DNA from: Rhodococcus jostii RHA1
Lineage (GTDB): Bacteria; Actinomycetota; Actinomycetes; Mycobacteriales; Mycobacteriaceae
Assembly (NCBI RefSeq): GCF_000014565.1
Contig: NC_008268.1
Coordinates: forward strand, 4,592,501-4,656,500
Length of the DNA: 64,000 nt
Reading direction: 5' to 3'
Position 1 is the first letter of the stretch, and every line of letters begins with the position of its first letter. A program made the translations under genes and the position numbers. Below the pieces are notes generated by a model. It was not told the DNA's origin. It was given only the letters and a program-made list of their open reading frames with translations, and did no database searches. Positions 8,314-26,500 of the stretch are shown here, in pieces.

Positions 8314-9888
8314 TCAGAAGATGAGCACCGACAGCGCGGTGGACAGCACCAGGCCGGACACCACGGGCACGAAACACTTCCTGGCGAGTTCGAGGACGGG
8401 CACACGGGCGAAGCCGGCCACCGCGATCAACGACGACCAGGCGACGAGCGTTCCACCGCCGGACCAGATGTTCCCCATCTGACCGATCGCCGCCAGGGTT
8501 GCGGGGTCCATCCCGACGGCAGGCCCGAGCGCGCCCGCGAGTGAACCGGTGAGCGGCAGCCCGGTGAATCCGGAGCCCTCGAGGCCCGCGATCATGCCGA
8601 TGGCGAGAATGCCGAACGACGTGACGAACGCGTTCTGCGGCAGGTGGGACTGCGCGGCGTTGACCAGGTCGAAGAGCAGCGTCGGACCGGTCGCGTCCGC
8701 GGGAAGCCCGAGAATGGCGGCGGAGAAGTCACCGTTGCCGATGAAGAAGAATCCGGCGATCGGGATCACGATGCCCATGGCCTTGAATGCGAAGACCAGG
8801 CCGTCGATCAGGTGCTCGGACGTCGTCTCGAGGAAGCCCTTCTTGTCGTTGGTCGCGGCCGCGGCGAACAGGATGAGCGCGGCGATGCCGCCGACCATCG
8901 CCGCCGCGTCGCCGCCCTTGAGGTCGGGCACCAGGTCGGTGAACTTGCCGACCATGAGGTAGACGATGAACGCCAGATACGCCGTGGGCACGAGTACTGC
9001 GAAAGTCTTTGCGGCGCGGATGCTCTTGAACGTGTCGTCGATGACCTGCCGCGCGGAGGCCGTGACGGGTTCGGCGAGGACCGCCGTCGACGTCGGGGGA
9101 GTGGCACTCGTCGCCGCTGCGGCCGGTGTGCGATTGATCGCGGCGCCGCCGGTGGGGGTCGCACCGCCGTCGGGGGCGTCGCCGCCGGGCTTGCCGAAGT
9201 CGCTCTCCGCGCGTGACTCCCAGTCGGTGAGCAGTTCCGGCGCGGGGCGGCGCATGTGCCTGCGCTGCGTGAAGTAGGCGATGAGGAGTGCGGTGAGACC
9301 GACGATCAGGGACATCACCAGGGCGCGGTCCGCGACGACGTCCGGATCGACTCCTGCCGACTTCGCCGACAGGCCCGGCGCCACCTTGATGATGTAGTCG
9401 GACGACAGCGCCATGCCCTGTCCGCAGATCGCGATCGCCATGCCGACCGCCATCGGGGGAAGGCCGGCGCGGATGGCGACGGGGATGAGGACGGCTCCGA
9501 TCAACGGAACCGCAGGGGTGGGCCAGAAGAACAGCGAGATCGTGTAGGTGACGACGGCCAGGACGATGAAGCTGCTGGTGCCGCCGCGCATGACGCGCCG
9601 GAACGGGGCGACCATCAACCGGTCGGCCCCCATCTGCCGGAGTGCGCCGAGCATCGCCGTCACCAGCGAGATGATGAGGAAGATGTTGAACAGCTCGCGG
9701 GCGGCGACGAGGCTCGCATTGAAAATCGACGCGAGGCCGGTGACGAGGCTGTCGGAGAACACGAAGGCGGTCAGGAACGTGCCGATGACGGCGGGGACGA
9801 CGATGTTCTTCCGCATGAGCATCGTCCCGAGGATGACGATGATTCCTCCGAGATACACCCAATGTGCGGCGGTGATACTTACATCCAC
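8314..9888 (-). CDS. Ion-transporter-superfamily permease (GntP/DcuC-like), substrate unknown
   Basis: 524 residues with about twelve hydrophobic helices in two halves, separated by a long hydrophilic Ala/Pro/Thr-rich linker at about residues 215-280. The re-entrant-like AICGQGMALSSDYIIKVAPG in the first half and IGQMGNIWSGGGTLVAW in the second half resemble carboxylate transporters of the ion transporter superfamily. GTG start at 9888 is preceded by AAGGGG. No substrate can be given; a carboxylate is a guess from fold. It is divergent from the MFS gene at 10188 and shares a regulatory region with it. Confidence 0.6.
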   Translation of the reverse strand: MDVSITAAHWVYLGGIIVILGTMLMRKNIVVPAVIGTFLTAFVFSDSLVTGLASIFNASLVAARELFNIFLIISLVTAMLGALRQMGADRLMVAPFRRVMRGGTSSFIVLAVVTYTISLFFWPTPAVPLIGAVLIPVAIRAGLPPMAVGMAIAICGQGMALSSDYIIKVAPGLSAKSAGVDPDVVADRALVMSLIVGLTALLIAYFTQRRHMRRPAPELLTDWESRAESDFGKPGGDAPDGGATPTGGAAINRTPAAAATSATPPTSTAVLAEPVTASARQVIDDTFKSIRAAKTFAVLVPTAYLAFIVYLMVGKFTDLVPDLKGGDAAAMVGGIAALILFAAAATNDKKGFLETTSEHLIDGLVFAFKAMGIVIPIAGFFFIGNGDFSAAILGLPADATGPTLLFDLVNAAQSHLPQNAFVTSFGILAIGMIAGLEGSGFTGLPLTGSLAGALGPAVGMDPATLAAIGQMGNIWSGGGTLVAWSSLIAVAGFARVPVLELARKCFVPVVSGLVLSTALSVLIF

Positions 9889-10187
9889 GGTGCGCCCCTT
9901 CGAAATAGGTACAGACTAGTGGCACTAGTCACAGTGCAGTGATACTGCGCGGGGCGTTTTCCAGGGTCAACGTCCAGAGTGCACATCGATAACCAGCGTA
10001 TTTGTGCATTGTGCCCGGCATTTTTCGCCGGGATTGCTTGTTGTCACGCGCAAGTAAAGGAATGCTCGGCAGAACCCGTTTCACGGAATCCTGTGTTCAT
10101 AATCAGGCTTGCCTAACCAAATGTGGCGAGCGGGGTGCGGCAGGGGTTTCCGGCGAGAACGGGCATCGCCGGAACGCGAATTCTCGG
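9889..10187. promoter_or_regulatory. 299-bp divergent control region with stacked palindromes
   Basis: This region separates the permease gene (minus) from the MFS gene (plus). It holds a 17-bp palindrome at 9914-9930 (GACTAGTG, one central base, CACTAGTC) and GCAGT-GAT-ACTGC at 9936-9948. AGTGCA boxes occur at 9933 and 9978. An inverted pair TGCACA/TGTGCA spans about 9980-10008. A CCCGGC/GCCGGG hairpin lies at 10014-10032. The upstream extension of the MFS reading frame through here lacks coding character. The palindromes look like operators; the proteins that bind them are not known. Confidence 0.6.
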
Positions 10188-11585
10188 ATGAAAGTGGACT
10201 CTATGAACACGGCGGTCGGTCAGGCTCAGAGTGCAACCGCGGGTGACGAACTCGGACCCGGCACGTCGCCCGCGCTGGCGGCGCTGCTCGCCGGAACGTT
10301 CGTCGGCACGGTCAGCAACAACATCGTCAACGTTCCGTTGAACGCGATCCTCACCGACTTCGACGCCGGTCTCGGCAGCGGCATCTTCGTCGTCGTCGGA
10401 TTTCTCCTCACCTTCGCGGCGACGATGCCGCTGGCCGGGTGGATCGGAGACCGGTTCGGGCGCAGGCGCGTGTACTGCGCGGCCCTACTGGGAACCGCGG
10501 TCTGTTCGCTCGGCGCGGCGCTCGCACCGTCCCTGCCCGTGCTCGTGATCTGGCGGTCGCTCGGCGGGATCGCCGCGGCCGCGTTCGCGCCCGCGGTCAT
10601 GGGCCTGATCGCGTGGCTGTTCGGGCCCCCACGGCGGGCGCGCGCCGTCGGCGCCTGGGCTGCGGTGAACGGGATCGGGCAGGCCGTGGGCCCGTCCATG
10701 GGCGGAATCGTCAGCGACTGGTGGGGCTGGCGGTGGGCGTTCGTGCCATTGGTGCCGGTCGCCCTGATCGGGTTCGCCGCAACCCTCCGCTACATCCCGC
10801 GCTACCCCGGCAAGAAGATGCGACTCGACGTGATCGGAGCGTCCACCGTCACGCTCGGCGCCGTCCTGCTGATCCTCGGCCTCACGACCGTCTCGATGGA
10901 GCAGGTGCCCGCCTGGGTCAGCATCGCGACCATCGGCGGCGGAGTCGTCGTCACGGCCGGGTTCGTGCTCCACTGCCGGCGGGCGGCGAACCCGTTCGTG
11001 CCCATCGACCTGGTGATCGAATCGCGGTTCCTGCGCAGTGCGCTCGCTGCCTTCACCCAGATGTTCGCGCTGGGGGCCCTGCTGCTCGCGCTTCCGCTCT
11101 ACCTGACGGGCTCGGGCAGTTCGACCACACAGGCGGGGCTGATGCTCTTCGTGCTACCGGTCGTCATGACATGCGTGGCACCCGTCGTCGGGCGTCTCGT
11201 CGACAGGATCGGGGCCCGGGTGGTGATGCGAACCGGGCTGGCCGTCTTGATCAGTAGTCAAGTGGCACTGGCGATCACGTTGTCCGCGGACGTCCGGAAC
11301 CCGGTCGCCGTCGGCGCCGTGCTCCTCGTCGCCGGAGTGGGGATCGGCATGGTCCAGACACCCGCCGCGGCCGGTTCGACCCGATCGCCCGCCGGGGCCG
11401 TCGGAACCGGCCTGGGACTGTTCAACCTCATCCGCTTCGGCGGCTCGGCCGTGGGCGCCGCCTGGGTGGGCGTGGCCGCACACCTGTCGGCCGATCCGTA
11501 CGGACTGCTGTTCGCAGTGGCGGCACTCGTCGTGCTCGCCGGATTGGCCGGGACGTTCGCCGGCGAGAACCCGGTGGCCGGCTGA
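10188..11585 (+). CDS. MFS drug:H+ antiporter-type transporter (DHA2-like)
   Basis: About 465 residues with 12-14 hydrophobic helices. Motif A appears as GWIGDRFGRRRVY between helices 2 and 3, and the antiporter motif C as GQAVGPSMGGIVSD in helix 5, which points to proton-driven export. ATG 10188 is chosen because the longer frame back to 10002 crosses the operator region; ATG 10203 is equally possible. The gene converges on pucR with only 3 bp between stops. Location next to the HDO operon suggests export or uptake of a related compound, which is inference. Confidence 0.8.
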   Translation: MKVDSMNTAVGQAQSATAGDELGPGTSPALAALLAGTFVGTVSNNIVNVPLNAILTDFDAGLGSGIFVVVGFLLTFAATMPLAGWIGDRFGRRRVYCAALLGTAVCSLGAALAPSLPVLVIWRSLGGIAAAAFAPAVMGLIAWLFGPPRRARAVGAWAAVNGIGQAVGPSMGGIVSDWWGWRWAFVPLVPVALIGFAATLRYIPRYPGKKMRLDVIGASTVTLGAVLLILGLTTVSMEQVPAWVSIATIGGGVVVTAGFVLHCRRAANPFVPIDLVIESRFLRSALAAFTQMFALGALLLALPLYLTGSGSSTTQAGLMLFVLPVVMTCVAPVVGRLVDRIGARVVMRTGLAVLISSQVALAITLSADVRNPVAVGAVLLVAGVGIGMVQTPAAAGSTRSPAGAVGTGLGLFNLIRFGGSAVGAAWVGVAAHLSADPYGLLFAVAALVVLAGLAGTFAGENPVAG

Positions 11586-11588
11586 GGA

Positions 11589-13283
11589 CTAGCGGGTCAC
11601 GATCTCGTGGTTGACGGTGTCCTGCACCTGGGAGAGCAGATCGAGACGGAGGGCCAGCCACAGCGTGAACTGGTTCTCGGGTTCCCGGATGTCCATGCCG
11701 ATGAGCCGTGACGTGCGATCGAGCTTGGCGATCATCGTGTTCCGGTGGATCCGGAGGCGCCGCGCGGCGGCATTGATGTTGCCGCCCTCCTCGAGGTAGG
11801 CGAACAGCAACTCCTCGGTGTCGGCGTGCGAACTCGACGCCCGAAGGGGACCCAGGACGTCACGGATGAGCCGTCGGCTCTCGTCGGTGTCGGTGGCGCG
11901 GGCGAGCACACTGAACCCGCGCAGGTCGTTGTAGGCCACCGAACCGGACAGCCCGAGCCGCTGGGCGATGCCCAGGGTGATGCGGGCCTCGCGGTAGCTG
12001 TCCCCGATATCGCGGGCGCCCGCCGCGGGACGTCCGTGGGCCACCGGAATCCGCTGACCCAAACGGGTTTCGAGATCGAGCGACATGGCGTGCGCGTACT
12101 CGCTGATCTCGGATTCGACACCAGGCGTGTCGACGGAGCTCAACGATCGGATCACCACGAGCACGTCGCCGATGACGGTGACGTGCGACCGTACGCCCGG
12201 ACGCGGCAGGACGCCGGCGGCGTAACGTGCCAGCCGGACCATGCTCGCGCCGGGCCGTCCCGACGCGCGGTCGACGAGACCGGGAGCGACGAACACGATG
12301 TAGTGCAGGTCCAGATCGATTTCGTGCAGCGCGGCCCGGGTGCGCAGGTCGTGGTCGTTGGCGAAGTTGCCGTGCACGAGGGCCTGGACGAAGTCGCCGC
12401 GTGCCCGCTCCTCGGCCTCGTCCACGCTCCGCTGCCGGAGCATCTCGGTGCCGATGATCGTCCCGGCCTGTTCGACGACCACCCGGTGCTGCGCGATATC
12501 GTGTCTGCGGGGGTTCGCCCCGGGCACGACGACCACGATCCAGCCCTCGTAGCGGCCGGCGAGTTGCATGGCCCCGGCGACTGCCGTCGTGGGCGCGAAC
12601 AGTCCCTCCGGATGCTCCAGGCGGAACACGTGAACGTTGTGCATCCGTGCCGGTGGTGATTCCTCGAGGCGCGGCAGGGCGTCCGCGAGAGCCTCCAGCA
12701 GGGCGACGGTGCCCGCGTCCTCGACATCCGGAAGTCCCGCGTGCGCGAGGAGGCGTCCCCGGACGTCCAGGGCGACGGCGACGTCCGAGGTCAGCGTCGC
12801 GACCTCGCGGATCAGCATCGGCAGGCCCGCGCCGCGGTGCAGCAAGCCCGCGAGCGACTGGTGCACGGTGAGGGCGTAGCGCATCACGTGCGCTTCCTGG
12901 GTGAGAGCGCGCTCGGCGAGGAGCCGGTTGAGTGCGGTGAACCCGACGGGAAAACCCAGCTCCACGACCGTCAGCCCGGTCGGCCAGACCGTGCCCGCGG
13001 GCGCCGACCCGTCGACGAGAAGGACCCCGGCTCCCCGCGCCACCAGCGATTCGAGTTCACGTCCGTGCGCGGGCAGCGTTTCGGGCCGGGTGTACACAGC
13101 GACCTCGGCGAGGGAGTCGGGCCTGCTCATCACCTCGCCCCACGGCAGGCACCACGTCACCGGACCGCTCAGGGCGTCCGTACCGGACAGCAGCCGGGCC
13201 GACGCGAGCAAAGGCTCTTCCAGCAGGCCGCGTAACGACAGTCGCTCGTCCTCTGCGGCCGGTGTCGTGGTGTCGTCCACTGC
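11589..13283 (-). CDS. PucR-family transcriptional regulator
   Basis: 564 residues. A GAF-like/PucR N-terminal sensing region is followed by a GGDEF-like middle part and a C-terminal HTH with GNINAAARRLRIHRNTMIAK at about residues 506-525, the hallmark of the PucR/CdaR helix-turn-helix. Family members are ligand-responsive activators of catabolic operons (purines, sugar acids, amines). GTG 13283 is chosen because GAGGAGG sits 7 nt upstream; a longer frame to 13328 lacks a ribosome-binding site. It is divergent from the GlcG/HDO operon and is its most likely regulator. Confidence 0.88.
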   Translation of the reverse strand, partial: AVDDTTTPAAEDERLSLRGLLEEPLLASARLLSGTDALSGPVTWCLPWGEVMSRPDSLAEVAVYTRPETLPAHGRELESLVARGAGVLLVDGSAPAGTVWPTGLTVVELGFPVGFTALNRLLAERALTQEAHVMRYALTVHQSLAGLLHRGAGLPMLIREVATLTSDVAVALDVRGRLLAHAGLPDVEDAGTVALLEALADALPRLEESPPARMHNVHVFRLEHPEGLFAPTTAVAGAMQLAGRYEGWIVVVVPGANPRRHDIAQHRVVVEQAGTIIGTEMLRQRSVDEAEERARGDFVQALVHGNFANDHDLRTRAALHEIDLDLHYIVFVAPGLVDRASGRPGASMVRLARYAAGVLPRPGVRSHVTVIGDVLVVIRSLSSVDTPGVESEISEYAHAMSLDLETRLGQRIPVAHGRPAAGARDIGDSYREARITLGIAQRLGLSGSVAYNDLRGFSVLARATDTDESRRLIRDVLGPLRASSSHADTEELLFAYLEEGGNINAAARRLRIHRNTMIAKLDRTSRLIGMDIREPENQFTLWLALRLDLLSQVQDTVNHEIVTR

Positions 13284-13458
13284 GGACCCTCCTCGGGTGG
13301 TCGAAAAGTGCAGTATGGCGGAGCGCACACCTGCACTGCTTATGCACTATGCCCTGATTTCGCCGAGATTGCCGGATAGTTTGACCATGGTTCCTCCGGC
13401 GATGCCGGTGATAGAAATCGGTGCATCACTTCCTCCCGAATACGCAACGGAGAAGACA
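13284..13458. promoter_or_regulatory. pucR / HDO-operon divergent promoter with AGTGCA inverted repeat
   Basis: The inverted repeat AGTGCAG (13307-13313) and CTGCACT (13331-13337) is separated by 17 nt; a third TGCACT follows at 13343-13348. The same AGTGCA hexamer recurs twice in the control region at 9889-10187. Its position between the divergent regulator and the catabolic operon makes it a candidate PucR-binding site. The ribosome-binding site GGAGA for the next gene lies near 13449. Confidence 0.5.
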
Positions 13459-13905
13459 ATGCATCAGGTTCACCGAATCACCCTCGACGACGCACTCCCA
13501 CTGCTCGCCGCGGGGCGCGCGAAGGCCGAGGAAATCGGCGTCAAGCAGACCCTGTGCGTCTGCGACGACGGCGGCAACGTACTGGCCCTGCACCGACTGC
13601 CGGGAGCGCGCCTCACCGGCGTCGACATCGCGATCGCCAAAGCGTTCACCGCTGCCGGCCACGAGCGGGCAACACACCTGTTCAACGAGGCTCCCGACGG
13701 TCCGGCGTTGCCCGGGAACGAGGCATTCGGCATCAGCCAGATGCTGCCGGGCAAGTTCGCGGTGTTCGTCGGCGGATTTCCCCTCGTCTTCGACGGCCAG
13801 ATCGTCGGCGGCATAGGCATCAGCGGCGGAAACGGCAAGCAGGACAAAGCCGTCGGAGCTGCGATGCTGGCCGAGTTCGAAGCCCTCGCCGCAGTACCCA
13901 GCTGA
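13459..13905 (+). CDS. GlcG/HbpS-family (DUF336) small protein
   Basis: 148 residues, full length for the family: small alpha/beta proteins related to HbpS (a heme-binding protein) and to GlcG, found in many catabolic operons. The segments LCVCDDGGNVLALHRLPGA, NEAFGISQMLPGKFAVFVGG and GQIVGGIGISGG are typical. The biochemical role is not settled for most members; heme or ligand binding is possible. ATG 13459 has GGAGA 7 nt upstream. First gene of the presumed operon, 152 nt before the oxidase gene. Confidence 0.85.
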   Translation: MHQVHRITLDDALPLLAAGRAKAEEIGVKQTLCVCDDGGNVLALHRLPGARLTGVDIAIAKAFTAAGHERATHLFNEAPDGPALPGNEAFGISQMLPGKFAVFVGGFPLVFDGQIVGGIGISGGNGKQDKAVGAAMLAEFEALAAVPS

Positions 13906-14057
13906 ATGCTCACGATGTGCCGACAACGTGCACATCGAAACCCTTCCAACGCAGTCACTTCGACCGTGGCCGGGCAGACCGCGAGTCGATAACGTCGAAT
14001 TCACTCCAGTCGGAGCATCCCCAACCATTCTCATACTCGAGGAAGACGAGGCACATC
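13906..14057 (+). other. Intergenic leader before the HDO gene
   Basis: 152 nt without a credible gene. The ribosome-binding site is GAGGAAGACGAGG just before ATG 14058. GTGCACATCGA at 13928-13938 also occurs at 9979-9989 upstream of the MFS gene, which may be chance. A second promoter for the oxidase gene could lie here. Confidence 0.35.
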
Positions 14058-14777
14058 ATGACCGAACTTCTAGGCAGGGACGATTTCCGCGCAGCTCTGG
14101 AGAACGCCATCAAGGGCCGCGAGGCGAAGAATGCGTCGTTCAGCAAGGCGTGGGCCGAGGGCAAGCTCGAGAAGCACCATTTCGCGCGGTGGGCGGAGAA
14201 CCACTACCACTACGTCGGCCCCTTCGCCGACTACCTCGCGAACATCTACTCGAACACCCCCGACACCTTCACCAACGCAAAGGATTTCACCCTCCAGAAC
14301 ATGTACGAGGAGGAACTGGCCGACATCCGGCACACCGACCTCCTCATCAAGTTCGCCGAGGCGTGCGGCACCACGAAGGAACGCGTCGAGGACCCGTCGA
14401 ACATGAACGCGATCACCCGCGGTCTGCAGTCCTGGTGCTACGCGGTGTCGCAGCGTGAGCACTTCGTCGTGGCCACAGCCGCGCTCGTCGTCGGACTCGA
14501 GTCTCAGGTACCGAGTATCTACAAGAAGCAGATCGTCCCGCTGCGTGAGGTATACGGGTTCACCGAGGACGAGATCGAATTCTTCGACCTGCACATCACG
14601 TCGGACGTCGTGCACGGTGAGCGTGGATACCAGATCGTGCTCGACCACGCCGATACCCCGCAGCTGCAGCAGCGTTGCCTGCAACTCGTGCAGTGGGGAG
14701 CCGAGATGCGCTTCTCGTACACGAAGGGGCTCTACGACACGTACGTGGCAACCGACCTCGAGCTCGCGACCGCCTGA
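14058..14777 (+). CDS. Heme-oxygenase-like diiron oxidase (HDO) / TenA-PqqC-fold protein
   Basis: 239 residues, all-helical TenA/PqqC fold size. The six ligands expected of HDO enzymes (CADD, UndA, BesC, SznF type) can be placed with exact spacing: E85 and H92 (E-x6-H), E148 (GLES), then H179, D183, H186 (H-x3-D-x2-H in HITSDVVH). PqqC and TenA, which lack a metal centre, do not keep this set. HDO enzymes use O2 and two irons for N-oxygenation or C-C cleavage of amines, amino acids or fatty acids. The next genes encode a Rieske protein and its reductase, a plausible electron source. Substrate unknown. Metal ligation is inferred from spacing, not shown. Confidence 0.85.
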   Translation: MTELLGRDDFRAALENAIKGREAKNASFSKAWAEGKLEKHHFARWAENHYHYVGPFADYLANIYSNTPDTFTNAKDFTLQNMYEEELADIRHTDLLIKFAEACGTTKERVEDPSNMNAITRGLQSWCYAVSQREHFVVATAALVVGLESQVPSIYKKQIVPLREVYGFTEDEIEFFDLHITSDVVHGERGYQIVLDHADTPQLQQRCLQLVQWGAEMRFSYTKGLYDTYVATDLELATA

Positions 14778-14786
14778 CCGTGCGCA

Positions 14787-14813
14787 GGGAGGGGCCCGCA
14801 TCGGGCCCCTCCC
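14787..14813 (+). terminator. Strong intra-operon hairpin after the HDO gene
   Basis: A perfect 12-bp stem (14787-14798 with 14802-14813), all but two pairs G:C, with a 3-nt loop, 9 nt after the oxidase stop codon. No U tract. It may attenuate transcription or protect the 3' end of a shorter mRNA carrying only the GlcG-like and oxidase genes. Confidence 0.6.
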
Positions 14814-14845
14814 GACGCAGGCATCTCGCCCGACAGGAGAGAACG

Positions 14846-15202
14846 ATGGAGACGAACTGGACCCGGCTGGTCACCGTCCGTGAGCTCGGCCGCCGCCGGA
14901 AACTTCGCGTCGAGGTCGGGGACACCGCGGTCGCCCTGTTCCAGGCGGACGACCGGATCTACGCCTTTCGTGATCTGTGCATCCATCAGGATCGGTCACT
15001 GGCGAAAGGCACCCTGCTGCACGGGCGGGTCATCTGCCCAGGTCACCAATGGGCGTTCGACCTCGACACCGGCTACGAGGAAGACCAGGACCTGTGCCAG
15101 CCGACCTACGCGGTGAAGGTCGAGGACGACATCGTCTACGTGGATCTCACCCGCAGCCCCGATTACGCCGAGACCGCGACTTCGCCGGCCGAAGTCGACT
15201 GA
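14846..15202 (+). CDS. Rieske [2Fe-2S] ferredoxin
   Basis: 118-residue soluble Rieske protein of the dioxygenase-ferredoxin type. The cluster motif is C45-x-H47 (CIHQDRSL) and C64-x2-H67 (CPGHQWAFD). It lacks a signal peptide or membrane helix, so it is cytoplasmic. It would take electrons from the FAD reductase encoded 16 nt downstream and pass them to an oxygenase; no Rieske oxygenase alpha subunit is present, so the upstream HDO is the natural partner. AGGAGAG at 14834-14840 is the ribosome-binding site. Confidence 0.9.
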   Translation: METNWTRLVTVRELGRRRKLRVEVGDTAVALFQADDRIYAFRDLCIHQDRSLAKGTLLHGRVICPGHQWAFDLDTGYEEDQDLCQPTYAVKVEDDIVYVDLTRSPDYAETATSPAEVD

Positions 15203-15218
15203 GAGAGCGAGTGACCCC

Positions 15219-16457
15219 ATGACGTTGAACACCATCGTCACCATCGGCGCCGGCCAGACCGCTGCCGTCGCGGCGCGCACCCTGCGGCGCCGAGGATTCG
15301 ACGGCAGGATCCTCCTCGTCGGCGACGAGTCGCACGCGCCGTATCAGCGGCCACCGCTGTCCAAGGAATTCCTTGCCGGGCAGGAGGATCGCGAATCGTT
15401 GATGCTGCTTCCCGACGCGTGGCGCGACAAGCAGAACGTCGAACTCCTCACAGACACGACGGTGACCCGGATCGACGTGAGCAGCGGATCGGTCCAACTG
15501 TCCGACGGGCGAAGCATCGCGGCCGACGCGGTACTCGTCGCGACCGGCGGCAGACCGCGCACGATGCCGGTGAACGGTCCTGCGCCCGAACGGGTGCACT
15601 ACCTGAGGACGATCGACGACGCCGAACGGCTCGCCGCCCACCTTCGTCCAGGCGTCGGTCTGGTGCTGATCGGCGGAGGCTTCGTCGGACTCGAAATTGC
15701 CGCCACTGCAACAGCCCTGGGAGCCGAGGTGACCGTCCTCGAAGCCGACCAGGTGCCACTCGCCCGAATCCTCGGGCCCGAGATGGGCGAGGTCTGCACT
15801 CGATTGCAACGGGAAAACGGAGTCACCGTCCGCGGCGGCGTCCGGGTCGACACCGTGACGACCAGGCCGGACGGCGTGCTCATCGCGCTCGACGGCGGAG
15901 AGGTGATTTCGGCCGACGTCGTGGTGGTGGGCATCGGGATCGTTCCCAACGTCGAAGTCGCGCAGGCCTCCGGCCTGGCCGTCGACGGCGGAATCCTCGT
16001 GGACGCGCAGGGGCGGACCTCGATTCCACACGTCTACGCCGCCGGCGACGTGGCAGCGCGCTTCTCCGACGCGGCAGGCAGGCACGTTCGCGTCGAACAC
16101 TTCGACAACGCGAGCAAGCAGGGGGCGGCGACCGCGAACCTCATGCTCGGACGGGTCGGAGTGGTGGACCCCGCGCACTGGTTCTGGTCCGATCAGTTCG
16201 GCAAGAACATCCAGTTCACCGGCACCGCCCGCTACACCGACCTGGTGTTCCGGGGCAGCGCCGACGGCGGCGAGTTCACCGCCTTCTATCTGGACAGCGG
16301 TGTCGTGCGCGGCGCCTTCACGCTCGACCGCGGCGACGAGATCAGCGCGGCCAGAGAACTGATCGGCCGGTCGATCGCGCCTGCCCGGTTGGCGGACGAG
16401 GACGTCGACCTGTTCGACCTGATGGACGATGACGAGGAATTGGTGACGGTGTCATGA
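15219..16457 (+). CDS. FAD-dependent ferredoxin reductase (BphA4/AlkT class)
   Basis: 412 residues, standard for the NAD(P)H:ferredoxin reductases of oxygenase systems. FAD-binding GAGQTAAVAA near the N-terminus, YQRPPLSKEFLAG after it, a second dinucleotide fold with IGGGFVGLEIAA at about residues 148-159 and the YAAGDVAA FAD motif at about 270-277. The conserved C-terminal reductase domain (HWFWSDQFGKNIQF) is present. It should reduce the Rieske ferredoxin encoded just before it. The stop overlaps the aldehyde dehydrogenase start (ATGA). Confidence 0.92.
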   Translation: MTLNTIVTIGAGQTAAVAARTLRRRGFDGRILLVGDESHAPYQRPPLSKEFLAGQEDRESLMLLPDAWRDKQNVELLTDTTVTRIDVSSGSVQLSDGRSIAADAVLVATGGRPRTMPVNGPAPERVHYLRTIDDAERLAAHLRPGVGLVLIGGGFVGLEIAATATALGAEVTVLEADQVPLARILGPEMGEVCTRLQRENGVTVRGGVRVDTVTTRPDGVLIALDGGEVISADVVVVGIGIVPNVEVAQASGLAVDGGILVDAQGRTSIPHVYAAGDVAARFSDAAGRHVRVEHFDNASKQGAATANLMLGRVGVVDPAHWFWSDQFGKNIQFTGTARYTDLVFRGSADGGEFTAFYLDSGVVRGAFTLDRGDEISAARELIGRSIAPARLADEDVDLFDLMDDDEELVTVS

Positions 16458-17896
16458 TCGAGGGACTCAATCTCATTGACGGGCAGTGGGTCCCGTCGTC
16501 TTCCGGAGCGACGTTCGAGCGGCGTAACCCCGCCGATCACGACGACGTGATCGGCGTGTTCCCGGATTCCACCGAGGCCGACGTGGATGCCGCCGTCAGC
16601 GCGGTGGCCAAGGCGGCGCCGCAGTGGGCCGCGACGCCCCCGGAACGCCGCGCGGCAATCCTGGAAGCCGCGGCCGGGCACCTCGAGGCACGGACAGGCG
16701 ACCTCGTCGAAGAACTCGTCCGCGAGGAGGGCAAGACCCGGGCCGAGGCGACCATGGAAGTCGGTCGGACTCCGATGAACCTGCGCTTCTACGCGGGCGA
16801 GGCGCTCCGCACCACCGGCAGCACGTATCCCACCCCGGGGGAGGGACTCGTCATCACCCTGCGTGAACCTGTCGGAATCGTCGGGGCGATCACCCCCTGG
16901 AATTTCCCGCTCAACATTCCGTCGCGCAAACTCGGGCCGGCGCTGGCCGCCGGAAACGTCGTGGTGTTCAAACCGTCCGAACTCACCCCGCTGATGGGAC
17001 AGCGGCTGGTCGAGGCGCTGCTGGCCGGGGGACTTCCGGCCGGAGCCCTCGCCCTGGTCCAGGGTTCCGGTCGCGCCGGCGGCGCGGTCGCGGCGGACGA
17101 GCGCGTCGATGCCGTGACGTTCACCGGCTCCACCCAGGTGGGCCGTGCGATCCACGCGGCGGTGGGTCCGTCTCGCCGCAGTCAGCTCGAGATGGGCGGC
17201 AAGAACCCCGTCGTGGTCCTGGGCGACGCCGACGTGGACAAGGCGGCCGCACTGATCGTCAAGGGCGCCTTCGGATTGTCCGGGCAGGCGTGCACGGGCA
17301 CCAGCCGGGTGATCGCGGTGGACGCGATCCACGACCGGTTGCTGGACCGCGTGGTCGAACTCGCCGAAGGGATCACCGTCGGCCCGGGCGCCGACCCGGG
17401 TGTGGGCATGGGGGCTCTCGCGAGCAAGGCGCAGCTCGCCAAGTTCCTCGAGTACGTCCAGATCGGCCGCGACGAAGGAGCCGAACTAGTCTGCGGCGGA
17501 GCAAGTCTCGACAGGGGGAACGGCTATTTCGCCGTCCCGACCGTGTTCGCCGGTGGCAGCCCCGACATGCGGGTGGTCACGGACGAAGTGTTCGGACCAC
17601 TGCTGGTCTTCCTGCGGGCGTCCGGCTTCGACGAGGCCGTCGCGCTCGCGAACGACACCGAATTCGGGCTCAGTGCGGGAATCGTCACCAACGACGTGAC
17701 GAAGGCTCTCGCATTCGCGGGCCGTTCCGAATCGGGTCTGGTGAAGATCAACCAGCCCACCACCGGCATGAGCATGAACGCGCCGTTCGGCGGATACAAG
17801 GCCTCGAGCACGCAGACCCACAAGGAACAGGCCGGCGACTCGATGATGCAGTTCTACCAAGCTGAAAAGACCGTCTACCTCAGCCCTTCGGCCTGA
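16454..17896 (+). CDS. NAD(P)+-dependent aldehyde dehydrogenase
   Basis: 480 residues, normal length. The oxyanion Asn150 lies in TPWNFP, the cofactor-loop motif FTGST is at 223-227, general base Glu246 is in LEMGGK and catalytic Cys280 is in GQACTGTSR. It oxidises an aldehyde to an acid. Translational coupling to the reductase (ATGA) implies the aldehyde is made by the upstream oxidase system. Sequence character is nearest succinate-semialdehyde/ketoglutarate-semialdehyde-type enzymes, but substrate cannot be read from sequence. Confidence 0.92.
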   Translation: MIEGLNLIDGQWVPSSSGATFERRNPADHDDVIGVFPDSTEADVDAAVSAVAKAAPQWAATPPERRAAILEAAAGHLEARTGDLVEELVREEGKTRAEATMEVGRTPMNLRFYAGEALRTTGSTYPTPGEGLVITLREPVGIVGAITPWNFPLNIPSRKLGPALAAGNVVVFKPSELTPLMGQRLVEALLAGGLPAGALALVQGSGRAGGAVAADERVDAVTFTGSTQVGRAIHAAVGPSRRSQLEMGGKNPVVVLGDADVDKAAALIVKGAFGLSGQACTGTSRVIAVDAIHDRLLDRVVELAEGITVGPGADPGVGMGALASKAQLAKFLEYVQIGRDEGAELVCGGASLDRGNGYFAVPTVFAGGSPDMRVVTDEVFGPLLVFLRASGFDEAVALANDTEFGLSAGIVTNDVTKALAFAGRSESGLVKINQPTTGMSMNAPFGGYKASSTQTHKEQAGDSMMQFYQAEKTVYLSPSA

Positions 17897-17925
17897 GACC
17901 TACCTGTCGACAGAGGGAGAAGACC

Positions 17926-18288
17926 ATGGAATTCACTCGCGTTGCGCGCTCCGGACAGGTTTCCGAAGGCATCGTGCGCCGCTTCTTTGCCGGCGAACAC
18001 GAGTTCGCCGTGGCCCGCCTCAACGGGAAGGCCTACGCCACATCCAACTACTGCACACACCTGGACTGCCTGCTCTCGTCCGGGAAACTCGTCGACGACG
18101 GCATCGGATGCTCCTGCCATGGAAGCGTATTCGATCTCGAGACCGGGGAACCCGTGTGCCCGCCGGCGACGGTGGCCATCAAGACCTACCCGGTCGAGGA
18201 ACGTGACGGCGAGATCTTCGTCGGCATCGACCCCGACGACACCAGTTCCGTCCCGCGCCGGCGGGCCGCGCGGGGGTGCATGAAGTGA
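17926..18288 (+). CDS. Second Rieske [2Fe-2S] protein
   Basis: 120 residues with C43-x-H45 (CTHLDC) and C62-x2-H65 (CSCHGSVFD). Extra cysteines Cys48 and Cys64 beside the cluster resemble those of respiratory-type Rieske proteins that carry a stabilising disulfide, unlike the first ferredoxin of the operon. No transmembrane helix. It may serve a different redox partner, or be an alternative donor to the HDO. It overlaps the start of the next gene. Confidence 0.85.
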   Translation: MEFTRVARSGQVSEGIVRRFFAGEHEFAVARLNGKAYATSNYCTHLDCLLSSGKLVDDGIGCSCHGSVFDLETGEPVCPPATVAIKTYPVEERDGEIFVGIDPDDTSSVPRRRAARGCMK

Positions 18289-19877
18289 ACCCTCGACCGT
18301 CCACTCTCTCCGCCGACGGCATGGTCTCGTCCAGTCATCCCGCGGCGAGCACGGTAGGTGCCCGCGTTCTGGCCGACGGAGGCAACGCCATCGACGCGAC
18401 TCTGGCCATGGCCGCGATGACCTGGCTGACGTTGCCGGGGCAATGCGGGATCGGCGGCGACGCGTTCGCCGTCGTCCGCGAACCGGACGGATCGGTGTGG
18501 ACGGTCGGGGGCAGCGGCTTCGGGCCGGACGGCGGTGACGTGGACTTCTATACCGAACGCGGGCTGCGGTCGATTCCCCTCGACGGGGCGCTGGCGGTGG
18601 CGGTTCCCGGGGCGCCGGCCGCCCTCGGCGCGTTGCACGCGGGTGGCGCCACCCGCTCGCTGACGGACCTCTGGGCACCGGCGGTGCGCGCGGCGGAGAA
18701 GGGGCTTCCCTGCTCGGCCAAGACTCGCGACGACGTGCGAGAAGCGCAGACCGCGATCGCCGCCGACCCCGGACTGCGTGCGGTGTACCTCCCGGACGGC
18801 CGATTGCCGCAGGTCGGGGAGCGGCTGCCGCAGCGCGACCTGGCCCTGACCATCGAGGCACTGGCGCGCGACGTGCACGGTTTCTACACCGGTTCCTTCG
18901 CTCAGCAGGCGGTCGAGGCGCTCCGCGCCGGTGGGGCGCCGTTCGGCGGGGACGAGTGGGCGGCGGGCGCCGACGTGCGACCGGAGGACGCGATCAGCGG
19001 GCACTACGCCGGCGCGGTCGTTCACCAGACACCCCTGCCCACCCCCGGATGGATGGTGCTCCAGCAGGCGGCGCTGAACGACGGCGTCATCGGCTTCTCG
19101 CCGTGGCTCACCGCTCCGGCAGTCGATCGCATGGCGCGAGCGGCCCGTCTGGCCTTCGAGGATCGGTTCGCGACCTGCGGCGCCGGCAACGACGGGTGGA
19201 GGGCCGTGCTCGAGCCGGCCGCGATCGGGGCGGCGAGAGACCGGCTGGACGGCCGTCGGGCGTCGTCGGGCGCCTTCAGCGTGAGCACCGGTGACACCAC
19301 CTCGACCGCGGCGGTGGATTCCGACGGCCGCGCGGTCAGTTTCATCCACTCGCTCGCCTTCACGTTCGGGGCCAAGACGACCGTCTCCGGCACCGGAGTG
19401 GTGCTGAACAACCGATTCGGACGCGGGGCCTATCTGATCCCGGGACATCCCAACGCCGCGGCGCCGCGGCGTAAACCGCTGCACACCCTGAACGCGTGGG
19501 TGATCACCGATACGTCCGGGAATCTCCTGCACGTCGGCAACACCCCGGGCGGGGACGGGCAGGTGCAGTGGAACATGCAACTGATCTCGCATCTGCTCGA
19601 TCACGGACTCGACCCGGCGGAGGCCGTCGCGGCACCCCGCTTCACGGTCTTCCCCGGCAGCGACGCCGATGTGATCGGCCGCCCGGCGGAACTGCGGTGC
19701 GAGTCCCGCATTCCGGAGGAGGTGCGCACGGAGTTGGAGCGCCTGGGGCACGACGTCGCACTGCAGGGTCCGTGGGCCGCCGGTGGAAGCGCGCAGATCA
19801 TCTCCCTCGACGTCGCGCGCGGCCTGCTGTCCGGCGCCGCCGACCCCCGCCAGGAAGGAATAGCACTCGGTGTCTGA
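18276..19877 (+). CDS. Gamma-glutamyltransferase-like N-terminal-nucleophile hydrolase, cytoplasmic
   Basis: 533 residues of the GGT family. The N-terminal SSHPAASTVGARVLADGGNA and the central GDTTSTAAVDSDG match the family; T341, first Thr of TTST, aligns with the nucleophile that cleaves the precursor into two chains. The usual TTHxS is TTSTA here, so the His is missing. Unlike classical secreted GGT there is no signal peptide, which suggests an intracellular hydrolase acting on a gamma-glutamyl amide or another acyl amide. ATG 18276 or GTG 18285 may be the start; both overlap the Rieske gene. Overlaps the RidA gene at the end. Confidence 0.85.
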   Translation: MHEVNPRPSTLSADGMVSSSHPAASTVGARVLADGGNAIDATLAMAAMTWLTLPGQCGIGGDAFAVVREPDGSVWTVGGSGFGPDGGDVDFYTERGLRSIPLDGALAVAVPGAPAALGALHAGGATRSLTDLWAPAVRAAEKGLPCSAKTRDDVREAQTAIAADPGLRAVYLPDGRLPQVGERLPQRDLALTIEALARDVHGFYTGSFAQQAVEALRAGGAPFGGDEWAAGADVRPEDAISGHYAGAVVHQTPLPTPGWMVLQQAALNDGVIGFSPWLTAPAVDRMARAARLAFEDRFATCGAGNDGWRAVLEPAAIGAARDRLDGRRASSGAFSVSTGDTTSTAAVDSDGRAVSFIHSLAFTFGAKTTVSGTGVVLNNRFGRGAYLIPGHPNAAAPRRKPLHTLNAWVITDTSGNLLHVGNTPGGDGQVQWNMQLISHLLDHGLDPAEAVAAPRFTVFPGSDADVIGRPAELRCESRIPEEVRTELERLGHDVALQGPWAAGGSAQIISLDVARGLLSGAADPRQEGIALGV

Positions 19878-20310
19878 GCAGGAATCCGTCGCCGCCGCCC
19901 CACGACCCCAGGGCCGCTACATTCCCGCGGTTGTGCACGACGGGATCGCGTACAGCGCCGGGATGACGCCACGCCGCGACGGTGTGCTCACGGTTACCGG
20001 CGTCGTCGGACGGGACCTGGACATCCCGCGGGCCCGGGAGGCGGCCGGGGTGGCGGCGAGGAACGCGGTCGCTGCGATAGCCGCGGCCGTCGGCGGCACG
20101 GCGGCCATCTCCCGGTGCCTGCGCATGAGCGTCTTCGTCGCGTGTGCCCCGGAATTTCGCGAACTGTCCGCGGTGGCCGACGGCGCGTCGGACGTGCTGG
20201 TCGAATGCCTGGGACTCGACGCGCTGCCGGTGCGCAGCGCGATCGGCGTGTACGCCCTGCCGTCCGGCGCCCCCGTGGAGATAGAGCTCACAGTGGCTGT
20301 CCGTGCATAG
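19870..20310 (+). CDS. RidA (YjgF/UK114) family protein
   Basis: 146 residues. RidA proteins hydrolyse reactive enamine/imine intermediates, releasing ammonia, or act as deaminases in catabolic operons. The conserved arginine and trimer-interface segment appear as LPVRSAIGVYALPSGAPVEI near the C-terminus. GTG start overlaps the GGT-like gene by 8 nt. Its presence suggests that an imine or enamine arises in this pathway. Last gene of the co-directional block before the GntR gene. Confidence 0.88.
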   Translation: MSEQESVAAAPRPQGRYIPAVVHDGIAYSAGMTPRRDGVLTVTGVVGRDLDIPRAREAAGVAARNAVAAIAAAVGGTAAISRCLRMSVFVACAPEFRELSAVADGASDVLVECLGLDALPVRSAIGVYALPSGAPVEIELTVAVRA

Positions 20311-22258: not shown

Positions 22259-23575
22259 TCACATCGGCGGCAGAGTCTTCTCGCCGAGCCAGGAATCCCA
22301 CAGCAGGCGCAGCGGCTCGTCGGTGTAGTGGGTGGCCAGGTCGGTGAACTGCTCGCTCGTGACGGTGGAGTGGCGATGGGCCAGCGTCCACTGCCGCAGC
22401 AGCCCGAAGAACTTGTCGTCGCCGAGCCGGCGTCGCAACGCGTGGAGTGTCAGCGCGCCGCGCTTGTAGACGCGGTCGTCGAACATCAGCTGCGGTCCCG
22501 GATCGGCGATCACCAGGTCCTGCGGTTTGCGGGCCAGGCCCTGATGCGCCTGCTGCGCGAGCTGGTGCGCCGAAGGCCCGCCGGAGTTCTCCGACCAGAT
22601 CCACTCGGCGTAACAGGCGAAACCTTCGTGCAGCCAGATGTCCCGCCACTGGCCGAGTGTCAGACTGTTGCCGAACCACTGGTGGGCGAGTTCGTGCGCC
22701 ACCAGACGTTCGTATCCGCGCCGGCCCGTGCAATGGTTGGCACCGAAAATCGACAGTCCCTGCGCCTCGAGCGGGATCTCCAGCTCGTCGTCCGTCACGA
22801 CCACCGTGTAGTCGGCGAAGGGGTACGGGCCGAACAGTCGGGAGAACACGTCCATCATCTGAGGCTGCCGGCCGAAGTCCACGTCGAACGTCGAACGCAG
22901 CCGCGGTGGGTGGACGGCGAACATGGGGACACCCCCGGAACCGAGGCTTCGGCGTTCGTACGGCCCGATCTGGATGGTGGCCAGGTAACTCGCCATCGGC
23001 TCGGTCTGCTCGTACACCCACGTCGTCTGGCTGGCTCGCGTCTGCTTGCTCACCAGCGCACCGTTGGCCACCGTGTAATACGGCGAATCGGTCGTGATCG
23101 CGATGCGGTAACTGGCCTTCGAACTCGGGTGGTCGTCGCACGGGAACCAGGACGCCGCCCCGTTGGGCTGGCTGGCAACCAGCGCGCCCTCGGACAGCTC
23201 CTCCCAGCCGACCTCACCCCACACACTGCGGATCGGTTTCGGCGAACCCCCGTACTGGACGGTGAGCACGAGGGCGCCGCCCGCGGGGATCGCCTGCGCG
23301 GGCGTGACGATCAGCTTGCCGTTCCGGTGCAACCACTTCGTGTTGCGGGAACCGTTGGTGGCGACCTTCGTGACGTGCAGATTGGACGCCAGATCCAGGG
23401 CGAACCGGGAGCGGGCCTCGGTGGTGACCGCGGTGATCGTGGCCTTGCCTGCCAGCCGGTTGCTGTGCACCTTGTAGGTGAGGTCGAGTTCGTACCGGGA
23501 CACCCGGTATCCGCGGTTTCCGTTCTGGGGGAGATACGGGTCGACCGGCTCGTCGATCCCCTTGTCAGCCTTCAC
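22259..23575 (-). CDS. M1-family (gluzincin) aminopeptidase
   Basis: 438 residues from GTG 23575, a short M1 peptidase with N-terminal beta-saddle and catalytic domains and no C-terminal ARM domain. The zinc site HELAHQ followed after 18 residues by E (in WLHEGFACYAEW) is intact. The exopeptidase GAMEN motif is replaced by LEAQG. GTG 23575 overlaps the stop of the Pls-like synthetase gene as GTGA, so translation is coupled; a longer frame to 23611 would overlap more. No signal peptide visible. The pairing suggests it processes or degrades the synthetase product, which is inference. Confidence 0.88.
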   Translation of the reverse strand: MKADKGIDEPVDPYLPQNGNRGYRVSRYELDLTYKVHSNRLAGKATITAVTTEARSRFALDLASNLHVTKVATNGSRNTKWLHRNGKLIVTPAQAIPAGGALVLTVQYGGSPKPIRSVWGEVGWEELSEGALVASQPNGAASWFPCDDHPSSKASYRIAITTDSPYYTVANGALVSKQTRASQTTWVYEQTEPMASYLATIQIGPYERRSLGSGGVPMFAVHPPRLRSTFDVDFGRQPQMMDVFSRLFGPYPFADYTVVVTDDELEIPLEAQGLSIFGANHCTGRRGYERLVAHELAHQWFGNSLTLGQWRDIWLHEGFACYAEWIWSENSGGPSAHQLAQQAHQGLARKPQDLVIADPGPQLMFDDRVYKRGALTLHALRRRLGDDKFFGLLRQWTLAHRHSTVTSEQFTDLATHYTDEPLRLLWDSWLGEKTLPPM

Positions 23576-26500
23576 GTGGCCGCCCAGGGGGCGATCGGAT
23601 TTCCCTGCCACCGCGTGGACGGCGGCACGGTGTCGCCGCGCATGACGAGCGAGGCCGGGCCGACCGTGGCGCCTTCGCCGATCCGGGCGGCGGGCAGCGC
23701 GACACAGTGCGGGCCGAGGGTGGCGCCGGCTCCGAGGATGACGGTGTCCATGGACATGATCCGATCATGGAACAGGTGAGTCTGCACGACACACCCCCGT
23801 TCCACGGTCGCGCCGTCGCCCAGCGTCACGAGATCCGCCTCGGGCAGCCAATAGGTTTCACACCACACACCCTTGCCGATGGTGGCTCCGAGGCCCCGCA
23901 ACCAGACGTTGAGGACGGCGGTGCCCGTCGCGGCACGGGCGAACCAGGGTGCGGCGACCGTTTCCACGAAGGCGTCCGACACCTCGTTCCGCCACACGAA
24001 CGAACTCCACAACGGGTGCTCGATCTTCCCGATCCGGCCGACCACCAGCCACTTCGCGATCACAGAGATCAACCCCGCGACCGCACCCGCGACGAGGAGG
24101 ACGACGCCGCTGGCCAGTGCCGCGAGCCAGAAGCCGATGTGGTGAGCCATCGCCTGCAGCGCGAACAGCACGCCGAGGCCGATTCCGAACGTCACCGTCA
24201 CCGGGATGAGGCGGCACGTCTCCACGACCGCGCGGGCCACCTTGAGCCGGACCGGGGGACGGAACGTGCGGGAGGCGTCGGTGTCGCCGGGCGCCCTGCG
24301 GAGGCGGACCGGGGGACTGCCCAGCCAGGACGAACCGGACTTCGCCTTCGACGGCGTGGCCGACAGCACCGCGACGAGACCGTTCTTGGGCACGCGCCGA
24401 CCCGGACCGGTCATCCCCGAGTTGCCGAGGAAGGCGCGCTTGCCGACCTTCGCGTGTTCGATGTGCATCCACCCCCCGCCGAGTTCGTAACTCGCGATCA
24501 TCGTGTCGTCGGCGAGGAATGCGCCGTCCGCCACGGTGGTGAACTTCGGCAGCATGAGCACGGTCGACGCTTCCACGTTCTTGCCGATCCGGGCGCCGAG
24601 CAACCGCAGCCATCCCGGCGTCAGGAGGCTCGCGTACAGCGGGAACAGGAACGTGCGGGCGGAGTCCATGAGGCGTTCGGTGGCCCACACCTGCCAGCCG
24701 ATGCGACTGCGGACCGGGTGGTACCCCTCACGCAACCCGATCGACAGCAGCCGGACGGACACGACCGTGAGGACCGCGAACACGGCGAGGCTGACGAGGG
24801 TCGCGGCGGGAAGGATCACCAGCGACTGGAGTACGGCGGACCCGATCGTGCCTGCGTCGCGGATCCACCACCCGATGACCACGATGCCGGCGACGAGGGC
24901 GAAGATCGGCAGTCCGGCGATGAGCATCGACGTCACGCCGAACGCGGGAACCCAGTAGGCCGCGCGGCGCGGGGTCTCCTCGGGCCACGGGTGGACGGCC
25001 TTGCCGACCTTGACCGCCGGTGAGCCGGCCCAGTGCTGATTGGCCTTGACGCGTCCGAATACGGCGGAACCCGCCTCGACCTCGGCGTTGCGCCCGATGG
25101 TGGCGCCGGGAACCAGCGTGGACCGGGCGCCCACCGACGCACCCGGACCGATCTTGATGGCACCGATGTGGACGACGTCGCCGTCCACCCAGTGTCCGGA
25201 CAGGTCGACCTCGGGTTCGATGGAGCATCCGTCGCCGAGCTCGAGCATGCCGGTGACCGGTGGGAGCGTGTGCAGGTCGACGCCCTTGCCGACCTTCGCG
25301 CCGAGCGCCCGCGCGTAGTAGAGCATCCACGGCGCGCCCGACAGGTTCGCGGCACCGCTGGCCTCGGTCAGGCGCAGCGCCACCCACAGCCGCAGGTGTT
25401 CGCTGCCGCCTCGGGGATACGTTCCCGGCTCGAGTCCGCGCAGCAGGATCCGCGAACCGATCACCGAGATCGCCATCCGGCCGACCGGGCTGATGAACGC
25501 GAAGAACGCGAGCAGAATCCACCACCACGACACCGTGGGCGCCCACGGCACCGTCGTGAACCAGGAGAAGACGTTGTTCGCGATGGCCAGCCACGTGACC
25601 CACTGCAGGCCCGTGAGCGTGGTCAGGGGAACGGTCGCCGCGATCTGCGCGAGCTGGCTCCGACGCGGAGTCGGCGTGACGAGGCGGGGTTCGGCGGCGT
25701 CGATCGGCGCCAGCTCGTCGAGGTATTCCGCGAGCGAACCGAGCCGCGGGTGGTCGTAGAGTTGCGCGACCGTCACCTCGGGGAACCGTTCGCGCAGCGC
25801 CGTGACCAGCTGGGCCGCCGAGAGCGATCCACCGCCGAGCTCGAAGAAGTCGTCGTCGGGGCCCGTGATCTCGGCACCGAGAATCGCCGTCCACAGCCCC
25901 GCGACCCAGGCCTGCGTGCCCTCGAGACCCAGTTTCTCCGCGGCGTCGTCGACACCCGGCGGAGGCCAGGGCAGGGCGTTCCGGTCGACCTTGCCGGACG
26001 TACGGGTGGGCAGTTCGTCGACCAGCACCAGCCGGGGAACCAGCGCCGCCGGGAGTTGCTCGGTGAGCGCGGTGTGCGCCGCCTTGAGGTCGAAGTCGGG
26101 GTTGGTGCTGGCCAGATAGCCGACGAGGACCTGGTGACCGGCACCGGTCCTGCGGACGGCCGCCGCCGCGCCGCCGACGCCGGGAAGGTTCTGCAGGGCG
26201 TTGTCGACCTCGCCCAGTTCGATCCGCCTGCCACCGAGTTTCACCTGATCGTCCGCGCGACCCTGGAACAGAAGTCCGCGGCGGTCGAGGCGGACGAGGT
26301 CGCCACTGCGGTACGCGCGATCCCAGCCGAGTGTCGGCATCGGTGCGTACTTCTCGGCGTCCTTCTGCGGGTCGAGGTACCGGGCCAGACCGACACCGCC
26401 GATGACCAGTTCGCCCACCTCGCCCTCGGGGACGGGTTCACCGGTTGCGTCGACCACTGCGAGGTCCCAGCCGTCCAGCGGGAGGCCGATACTGACCGGA

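Follow-up and report, generated by a model that had tools for sequence, protein, structure and literature searches.

A heme-oxygenase-like diiron protein as candidate terminal component of an NADH-FAD-Rieske electron chain in an operon of Rhodococcus jostii RHA1

A 64-kb stretch of the Rhodococcus jostii RHA1 chromosome (NC_008268.1, from a genome of 9.7 Mb in four contigs; hereafter the window) carries, at 13459-20310, eight plus-strand genes encoding in order an HbpS/DUF336 protein, a heme-oxygenase-like diiron oxidase/oxygenase (HDO), a Rieske protein (Rieske1), an FAD-dependent ferredoxin reductase, an aldehyde dehydrogenase (ALDH), a second Rieske protein (Rieske2), a GGT-fold hydrolase and a RidA-family protein. 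This operon probably specifies a multicomponent oxygenase that acts within a catabolic pathway and has the HDO, not a Rieske oxygenase, as its terminal component. The positions of the open reading frames bore out the original prediction of eight co-directional genes, although its description of them as mostly overlapping was too strong, overlaps being confined to three of the seven junctions (reductase/ALDH, -4; Rieske2/GGT, -13; GGT/RidA, -8) while the remaining four have gaps of 152, 68, 16 and 29 bp. The members that it listed were all present, but it had passed over the first gene, HbpS/GlcG (DUF336), which is conserved like the HDO, and the boundaries it gave were too narrow on the left, where the conserved unit also takes in genes for a PucR-type regulator, an MFS transporter and a permease (8314-13328).

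Judged by its modelled fold and its ligand residues, the second gene product belongs to the HDOs. The six expected residues, E85, H92, E148, H179, D183 and H186, are present with the predicted E-x6-H and H-x3-D-x2-H spacing, are invariant across an alignment of 32 sequences (that of the window included) and all coincide with the ligand columns of CADD. The model has the heme-oxygenase-like helical fold and, in line with the overlay on CADD that had been suggested as a check, its top match among solved structures was CADD (Z 27.6), with PqqC at Z 26.7. By sequence, too, the nearest solved relatives are the p-aminobenzoate (pABA) synthases CADD / NePabS. It could thus be envisaged that the window HDO is itself a self-sacrificing or cofactor-making enzyme, that is a CADD-type pABA synthase or a PqqC, or else a TenA thiaminase, given these relatives, a PqqC fold score within 1 of that of CADD and a PF03070 score of 35.6 bits that exceeds the cut-off of 22. 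However, PF14518 gave 121.5 bits, and on such profile scores, by which the TenA question was judged, the protein does not appear TenA-like. The columns of Tyr27 and Lys152, which the accessible text of PMC11965152 gives as the sacrificial residues of CADD, hold Ser29 and Gln158 in the window HDO; the CADD profile TIGR04305 reached 96.1 bits against a cut-off of 200, and the PqqC profile TIGR02111 44.2 bits against a cut-off of 240. The CADD-type assignment was therefore rejected on the replaced Tyr/Lys pair and the family cut-off, and the PqqC assignment on its cut-off. In addition, the conserved neighbours are of catabolic type and include no gene for folate or PQQ, and a self-sacrificing, cofactor-making or thiaminase function is very unlikely. 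Profile scores and sequence searches together place the protein nearer CADD than the TenA thiaminases or PqqC, a grouping with either of which would have counted against the predicted identity. Databases name this HDO (P0010, P0047, P0206 and others) variously as 'TenA family transcriptional regulator', 'pyrroloquinoline-quinone synthase' and even 'aldehyde dehydrogenase'.

The two small proteins each carry the CxH...CxxH cluster motif (CIHQ...CPGH and CTHL...CSCH), and the closest solved relatives of the FAD reductase are putidaredoxin reductase and BphA4. No Pfam match to the Rieske oxygenase alpha family was obtained among the eight operon products. Motifs and Pfam matches thus agree with the prediction of two Rieske proteins and one ferredoxin reductase but no Rieske oxygenase, and a reductase and an electron carrier are encoded alongside the HDO, as in the MboAB system considered below.

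A scan of species genomes yielded 410 HDO relatives, the best 80 loci of which were retained for module counts; these are counts of tblastn matches, and some loci are cut by contig ends. Gene calls in the relatives came from a crude GC-based script, and absences therefore rest on tblastn. The order HDO>Rieske1>reductase was found in 79 of the 80 loci, the 80th (L046), on a contig of 3.3 kb, giving no reductase match. Among the same 80, as scored for order, ALDH>Rieske2 follow the reductase in 54 loci; in a further 21 it is Rieske2 that follows the reductase, the ALDH gene lying elsewhere in 19 of these and not being found in 2. Rieske1 and the reductase remain with the HDO where other genes move. 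Fusions link the same partners: reductase-Rieske2 in one 520-aa protein (L141), Rieske1-reductase in one stop-free frame (L060) and Rieske1-reductase-Rieske2 in a single polypeptide of 737 aa (L080). A protein search with the last of these found, among the matches listed, two further 695-aa proteins aligned over 98%, one of them from Streptomyces winkii, and by precomputed annotation reductase and Rieske domains occur together in 35 of the 120 matches listed of 3050.

Another chain stands beside the same HDO in Betaproteobacteria, in which six plasmid or chromid records match the HDO at 66-71% identity. Four of the six (L129, L130, L131 and L134; 28.7 kb each) were read, and two Caballeronia loci are near-identical by annotation. 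In all four the HDO is accompanied by ALDH (45-46%), HbpS (52-57%) and the same permease (46-51%), and beside it are encoded a BenC-like reductase (207 bits in L129, below the cut-off of 430), plant-type ferredoxins and an OCD-family protein; none of the four gave a match to Rieske1, Rieske2, the BphA4-type reductase, GGT or RidA. Close to the betaproteobacterial HDO, two plant-type ferredoxins flank a protein of about 106-116 aa (L129:10400-10720(-), L130:13078-13428(-)); a Pfam scan of the L129 copy gave no match, and it could be a coupling protein. Strict gene order, fusions and this replacement support the predicted dedicated NADH-FAD-Rieske chain and suggest that electrons would pass along it from NADH to the diiron centre.

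A third group of arrangements, each with HbpS and ALDH, was found in the class of genome G231, where the HDO is matched in 3 of 296 genomes: L135 and L140 encode the HDO with a plant-type ferredoxin and a Rieske protein, and L141 the HDO with Rieske1 and the fused reductase-Rieske2. The bridge locus L135, from G231 itself, combines an HDO of 76% identity with a GGT-fold protein (30%), an OCD protein and a different type of RidA, which reached 100.2 bits with TIGR00004 (cut-off 106.25) as against 26.2 for the window RidA. A simple replacement of RidA by OCD was rejected, both being present in this locus.

As a control, 14 neighbourhoods (10.8-19 kb) were read, one around the second PF14518 copy of the genome and the others around 13 of the 41 weaker matches in the phylum; four of the 14 HDO-like genes have diverged so far that they gave no match to the window HDO at E<=1e-5. 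None of the 14 matched Rieske1, Rieske2, HbpS, ALDH or GGT or contained a Rieske motif, and one gave an MFS match. The second PF14518 gene itself (182 bits) lies at G000:C1:93763-94293 (L132, L142), with no Rieske, HbpS, ALDH or GGT match in the 19 kb around it.

Several observations weigh against the proposed HDO-based catabolic oxygenase. Two Rieske proteins for a single oxygenase are unusual, and two genomes (G806, locus L140; G231, locus L135) gave no FAD reductase match in the stretch read. The control neighbourhoods contained one RidA match and two weak reductase matches. Within the 62 of the 80 loci that have both 10-kb flanks, GGT went unmatched in 5 and RidA in 2, and since neither was found in the betaproteobacterial loci, both may be accessory. 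Finally, at a distance of about 10 kb, both Caballeronia loci encode the alpha/beta pair of a Rieske oxygenase. As reductases of BphA4 type and ferredoxins of this sort ordinarily supply Rieske oxygenases or P450 enzymes, this pair would suit the explanation that the two Rieske proteins and the reductase work for a Rieske oxygenase whose genes lie elsewhere, with the HDO merely adjoining. In contrast, Rieske1 is the next gene after the HDO in all 80 loci and, like the reductase, stays at its side, a different chain adjoins the HDO in Betaproteobacteria, and inspection by eye of the listed Cupriavidus stretches revealed no oxygenase; service to an oxygenase elsewhere is thus quite improbable.

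Support for the HDO as terminal component of a conserved module came from its distribution. Matches in the best 80 of the 410 loci numbered 80 for HDO and Rieske1, 79 for the reductase, 75 for ALDH and Rieske2, 74 for PucR and the permease, 71 for MFS and HbpS, 69 for RidA and 68 for GGT. In the 62 full-flank loci, scored at E<=1e-8 and with partial matches included, they were 62 for permease, Rieske1, reductase and Rieske2, 61 for PucR and ALDH, 60 for HbpS and RidA, and 57 for MFS and GGT. Within the family the HDO was found in 19 of 201 genomes (E<=1e-20) and the GGT orthologue in 20 of 201 (E<=1e-100), namely the same 19 and G134. Because HDO and GGT orthologue co-occur in this way in 19 of the 201 genomes, the module is, on these matches, sparse and inherited as a unit. 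The G134 locus (L136) holds a remnant, a GGT orthologue of 81% identity and a 36-residue Rieske2 tail, and the first 14 kb of the contig gave no match to HDO, Rieske1, reductase, ALDH or RidA. Across 396 genomes of the phylum, only two (the source genome and G231) have an HDO relative of at least 76% identity, the other 37 with a match at E<=1e-8 reaching 32% at most. Among the matches listed, the named records closest at the locus are Rhodococcus opacus ATCC 51881 (HDO 100%) and R. wratislaviensis NCTC13229 (99%). Median identities to the window over 39 Mycobacteriales loci were 92.0 for HDO, 91.7 for HbpS, 81 for Rieske2, 71 for ALDH, 70 for GGT, 69 for permease and Rieske1, 60 for MFS, 59 for reductase, 58 for RidA and 54 for PucR; by the first two values HbpS appears as tightly constrained as the HDO.

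According to the accessible text of a 2026 review (PMC13108848), about a dozen HDOs have been functionally validated, mostly biosynthetic ones, those studied need no protein effector like those of the ferritin-like diiron oxygenases, and the redox partner named is MboB. MboAB of mangotoxin biosynthesis, reported in April 2026 (PMC13185094), is an HDO with its own reductase and possibly the first dedicated pair to be characterised; in the text available, full conversion by MboA needs MboB, a flavin/Fe2S2 reductase. The earlier statement that most characterised HDOs lack a dedicated redox chain thus still holds, with MboAB as a characterised exception. In the HDO literature surveyed, as far as its text was available, MboAB is the sole dedicated HDO-redox pair described, and the supply of electrons to HDOs in the cell is largely open. 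The window resembles MboAB in that the gene of the HDO adjoins one for an NAD(P)H reductase of its own (PMC13185094). As described in that source, however, MboAB is a biosynthetic peptide acetylenase with one two-centre reductase, whereas in the window the reductase, of BphA4 type, is a separate protein and is joined by two Rieske proteins within an operon that looks catabolic; among the relatives of the window HDO, those in Betaproteobacteria have the BenC-like flavin/2Fe-2S reductase. MboA also bears on a further explanation, that the chain reduces the diiron centre for activation or repair only, turnover proceeding without steady external electrons: in the accessible text of PMC13185094, Fe(II) suffices for MboA to form its first two-electron product, but its second turnover needs MboB. 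Gene order and fusions, moreover, suggest a steady partner, and a chain confined to activation seems rather unlikely.

The same kind of NADH-FAD-ferredoxin chain is found in the BphA3A4 and putidaredoxin reductase systems, which feed three-component Rieske dioxygenases and P450, respectively; the window differs in its two Rieske proteins and in the HDO as proposed terminal oxygenase. The module is accordingly proposed to work like a three-component oxygenase without being a Rieske oxygenase system. Neither this gene set nor its substrate or pathway was found in the open-licence literature searched, in agreement with the original claim that no such system has been described, nor did a known pathway emerge for the cluster. 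Looking in that literature for HDOs in combination with Rieske proteins turned up only PMC13108848, where, in the text available, Rieske refers to dioxygenases.

The HbpS (DUF336) protein has no signal peptide apparent by eye, and its relatives in the PDB include EfgA, the PduO C-domain and NahX. Its presence allows a role of the cluster in heme or iron metabolism to be considered, in which a heme-oxygenase-fold protein, reductase, ferredoxins and a heme-binding HbpS would degrade heme, all the more as heme oxygenases take electrons from ferredoxin/reductase donors. Streptomyces HbpS is described, in the accessible text of PMC8153426, as sensing and degrading heme. However, the window HDO has the full HDO ligand set with CADD closest, and ALDH, RidA, a GGT-fold hydrolase and a permease of organic-anion type are ill-suited to heme breakdown, which makes this explanation very unlikely.

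The nearest profile for the ALDH is 2,5-dioxovalerate (alpha-ketoglutarate semialdehyde) dehydrogenase (NF052305; 508.8 bits, below the cut-off of 750), and the ALDH is nearest to alpha-ketoglutarate semialdehyde dehydrogenases in all four lineages checked. A cyclic-imino-acid-reductase-like protein is present in two lineages. Together these two hints point to a product of five carbons, derived from an amino acid or a small N-heterocyclic acid, for example pyrrole or pyrroline carboxylate; this substrate is put forward as a long shot.

The GGT-fold protein has kept the catalytic Thr, Thr341 aligning with position 391 of E. coli GGT (2e0w alignment), and reached 216.9 bits with the GGT profile TIGR00066 (cut-off 357.85). 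At the five columns of the gamma-Glu site, which we take to be Asn411, Gln430, Asp433, Ser462 and Ser463 in E. coli numbering, it has Ala, Arg, Arg, His and Thr. With all five positions changed, the gamma-glutamylated substrate of the original prediction is not supported, and gamma-glutamylation of the kind known from the aniline or isopropylamine routes was rejected for this protein. GGT-family structures 2i3o and 2nlz, among the best solved matches, share an HT motif with the protein where E. coli GGT has two Ser; it is a probable amidohydrolase without the gamma-Glu site. The RidA-family protein exceeds the PF01042 cut-off (45.1 bits against 27.3) and falls short of that of TIGR00004 (26.2 against 106.25), its closest solved chain is PA0814 (9bk9), and it is probably an enamine/imine deaminase. 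The predicted catabolic-looking setting with ALDH and RidA is supported by the module genes.

In the scheme that we propose, a nitrogen-carrying organic acid would enter via the permeases. As gene order and fusions suggest, electrons would pass from NADH through the FAD reductase and the Rieske proteins, in either order, to the diiron centre of the HDO. With O2, the HDO would oxidise the acid and in doing so cleave or open it, the products being an imine or enamine together with an aldehyde or semialdehyde, and HbpS may bind or guard the reactive product or the HDO. By the chemistry of their families, ALDH would oxidise the aldehyde, the GGT-fold hydrolase would cleave an amide or lactam, RidA would deaminate the enamine/imine and PucR would control the gene set.

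Table 1. Predicted features of the module and its conserved left part in the window.
Feature	Position	Strand	Remarks
Permease without Pfam/NCBIfam family	8314..9888	-	ion-transporter fold (NaS1/NaDC/INDY, ArsB, TRAP-M like)
MFS transporter 1 (DHA2-like)	10098..11585	+	PF07690 172 bits; match in 57/62 full-flank loci
PucR-type regulator, divergent	11589..13328	-	PF13556 + PF17853; match in 61/62 full-flank loci
HbpS/GlcG (DUF336)	13459..13905	+	PF03928 112 bits
HDO, heme-oxygenase-like diiron oxidase/oxygenase, 239 aa	14058..14777	+	ligand residues E85 H92 E148 H179 D183 H186
Rieske ferredoxin 1	14846..15202	+	PF00355 53 bits; directly after HDO in 80/80 loci
NADH:ferredoxin reductase, FAD, BphA4/putidaredoxin-reductase type	15219..16457	+	PF07992 + PF14759
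Aldehyde dehydrogenase	16454..17896	+	PF00171 490 bits
Rieske ferredoxin 2	17926..18288	+	PF00355 64.7 bits; fused to reductase in L141, L080
GGT-fold Ntn hydrolase, catalytic Thr341	18276..19877	+	PF01019 288 bits
RidA-family	19870..20310	+	PF01042 45 bits

The permease (Table 1) gave no Pfam, NCBIfam or meaningful PDB-sequence match, and the fold comparison of a middling model, alone informative, suggests that it probably imports an organic anion. Its family is tied to the module in two phyla, and L013 and L019 are among the loci with a second copy across the cluster. On the right side, GntR, a second MFS and a peptidase were rejected as module members, each being matched in only 5 of the best 80 loci. 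At 13329-13458, upstream of HbpS, and in the same region of L002-L045, the elements TATGTGCA-n-TTGACC and GGTCA-n-TGACC and, about 20 bp beyond them, a GGTAGAMAT-like box recur, by eye, in many of 44 loci; these are possible PucR operators and -35/-10 boxes. Two clusters of similar integral-membrane proteins, apparently of the YoaK/DUF1275 family, fall within L014-L045 and L048-L074; one (median 252 aa) is present in 24 of the 80 loci, the other (median 261 aa) in 10. Immediately right of the peptidase gene, by eye, lies an open frame of 1296 aa (23572-27462, minus strand). Its N-terminal part is adenylation-like, it contains a carrier-like motif, and its long C-terminal part is membrane- and repeat-like.

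Taken as a whole, the balance tips slightly towards a new oxygenase class, catabolic and present in many Actinomycetota, in which an HDO as terminal component would be served by an NADH-FAD-double-Rieske chain (a tri-domain protein in some Streptomyces), while a lineage in the Pseudomonadota would couple the same HDO to a BenC-type reductase and plant-type ferredoxins, the class serving an undescribed route for the breakdown of a nitrogen-containing organic acid. If so, Rieske-type electron chains would have a new kind of terminal component, and a pathway would have been masked by database labels like 'TenA family transcriptional regulator' and 'pyrroloquinoline-quinone synthase'. The module provides an HDO whose electron chain is genetically fixed across many species, and because natural replacements and fusions name the partners, the supply of electrons to an HDO becomes testable by reconstitution.

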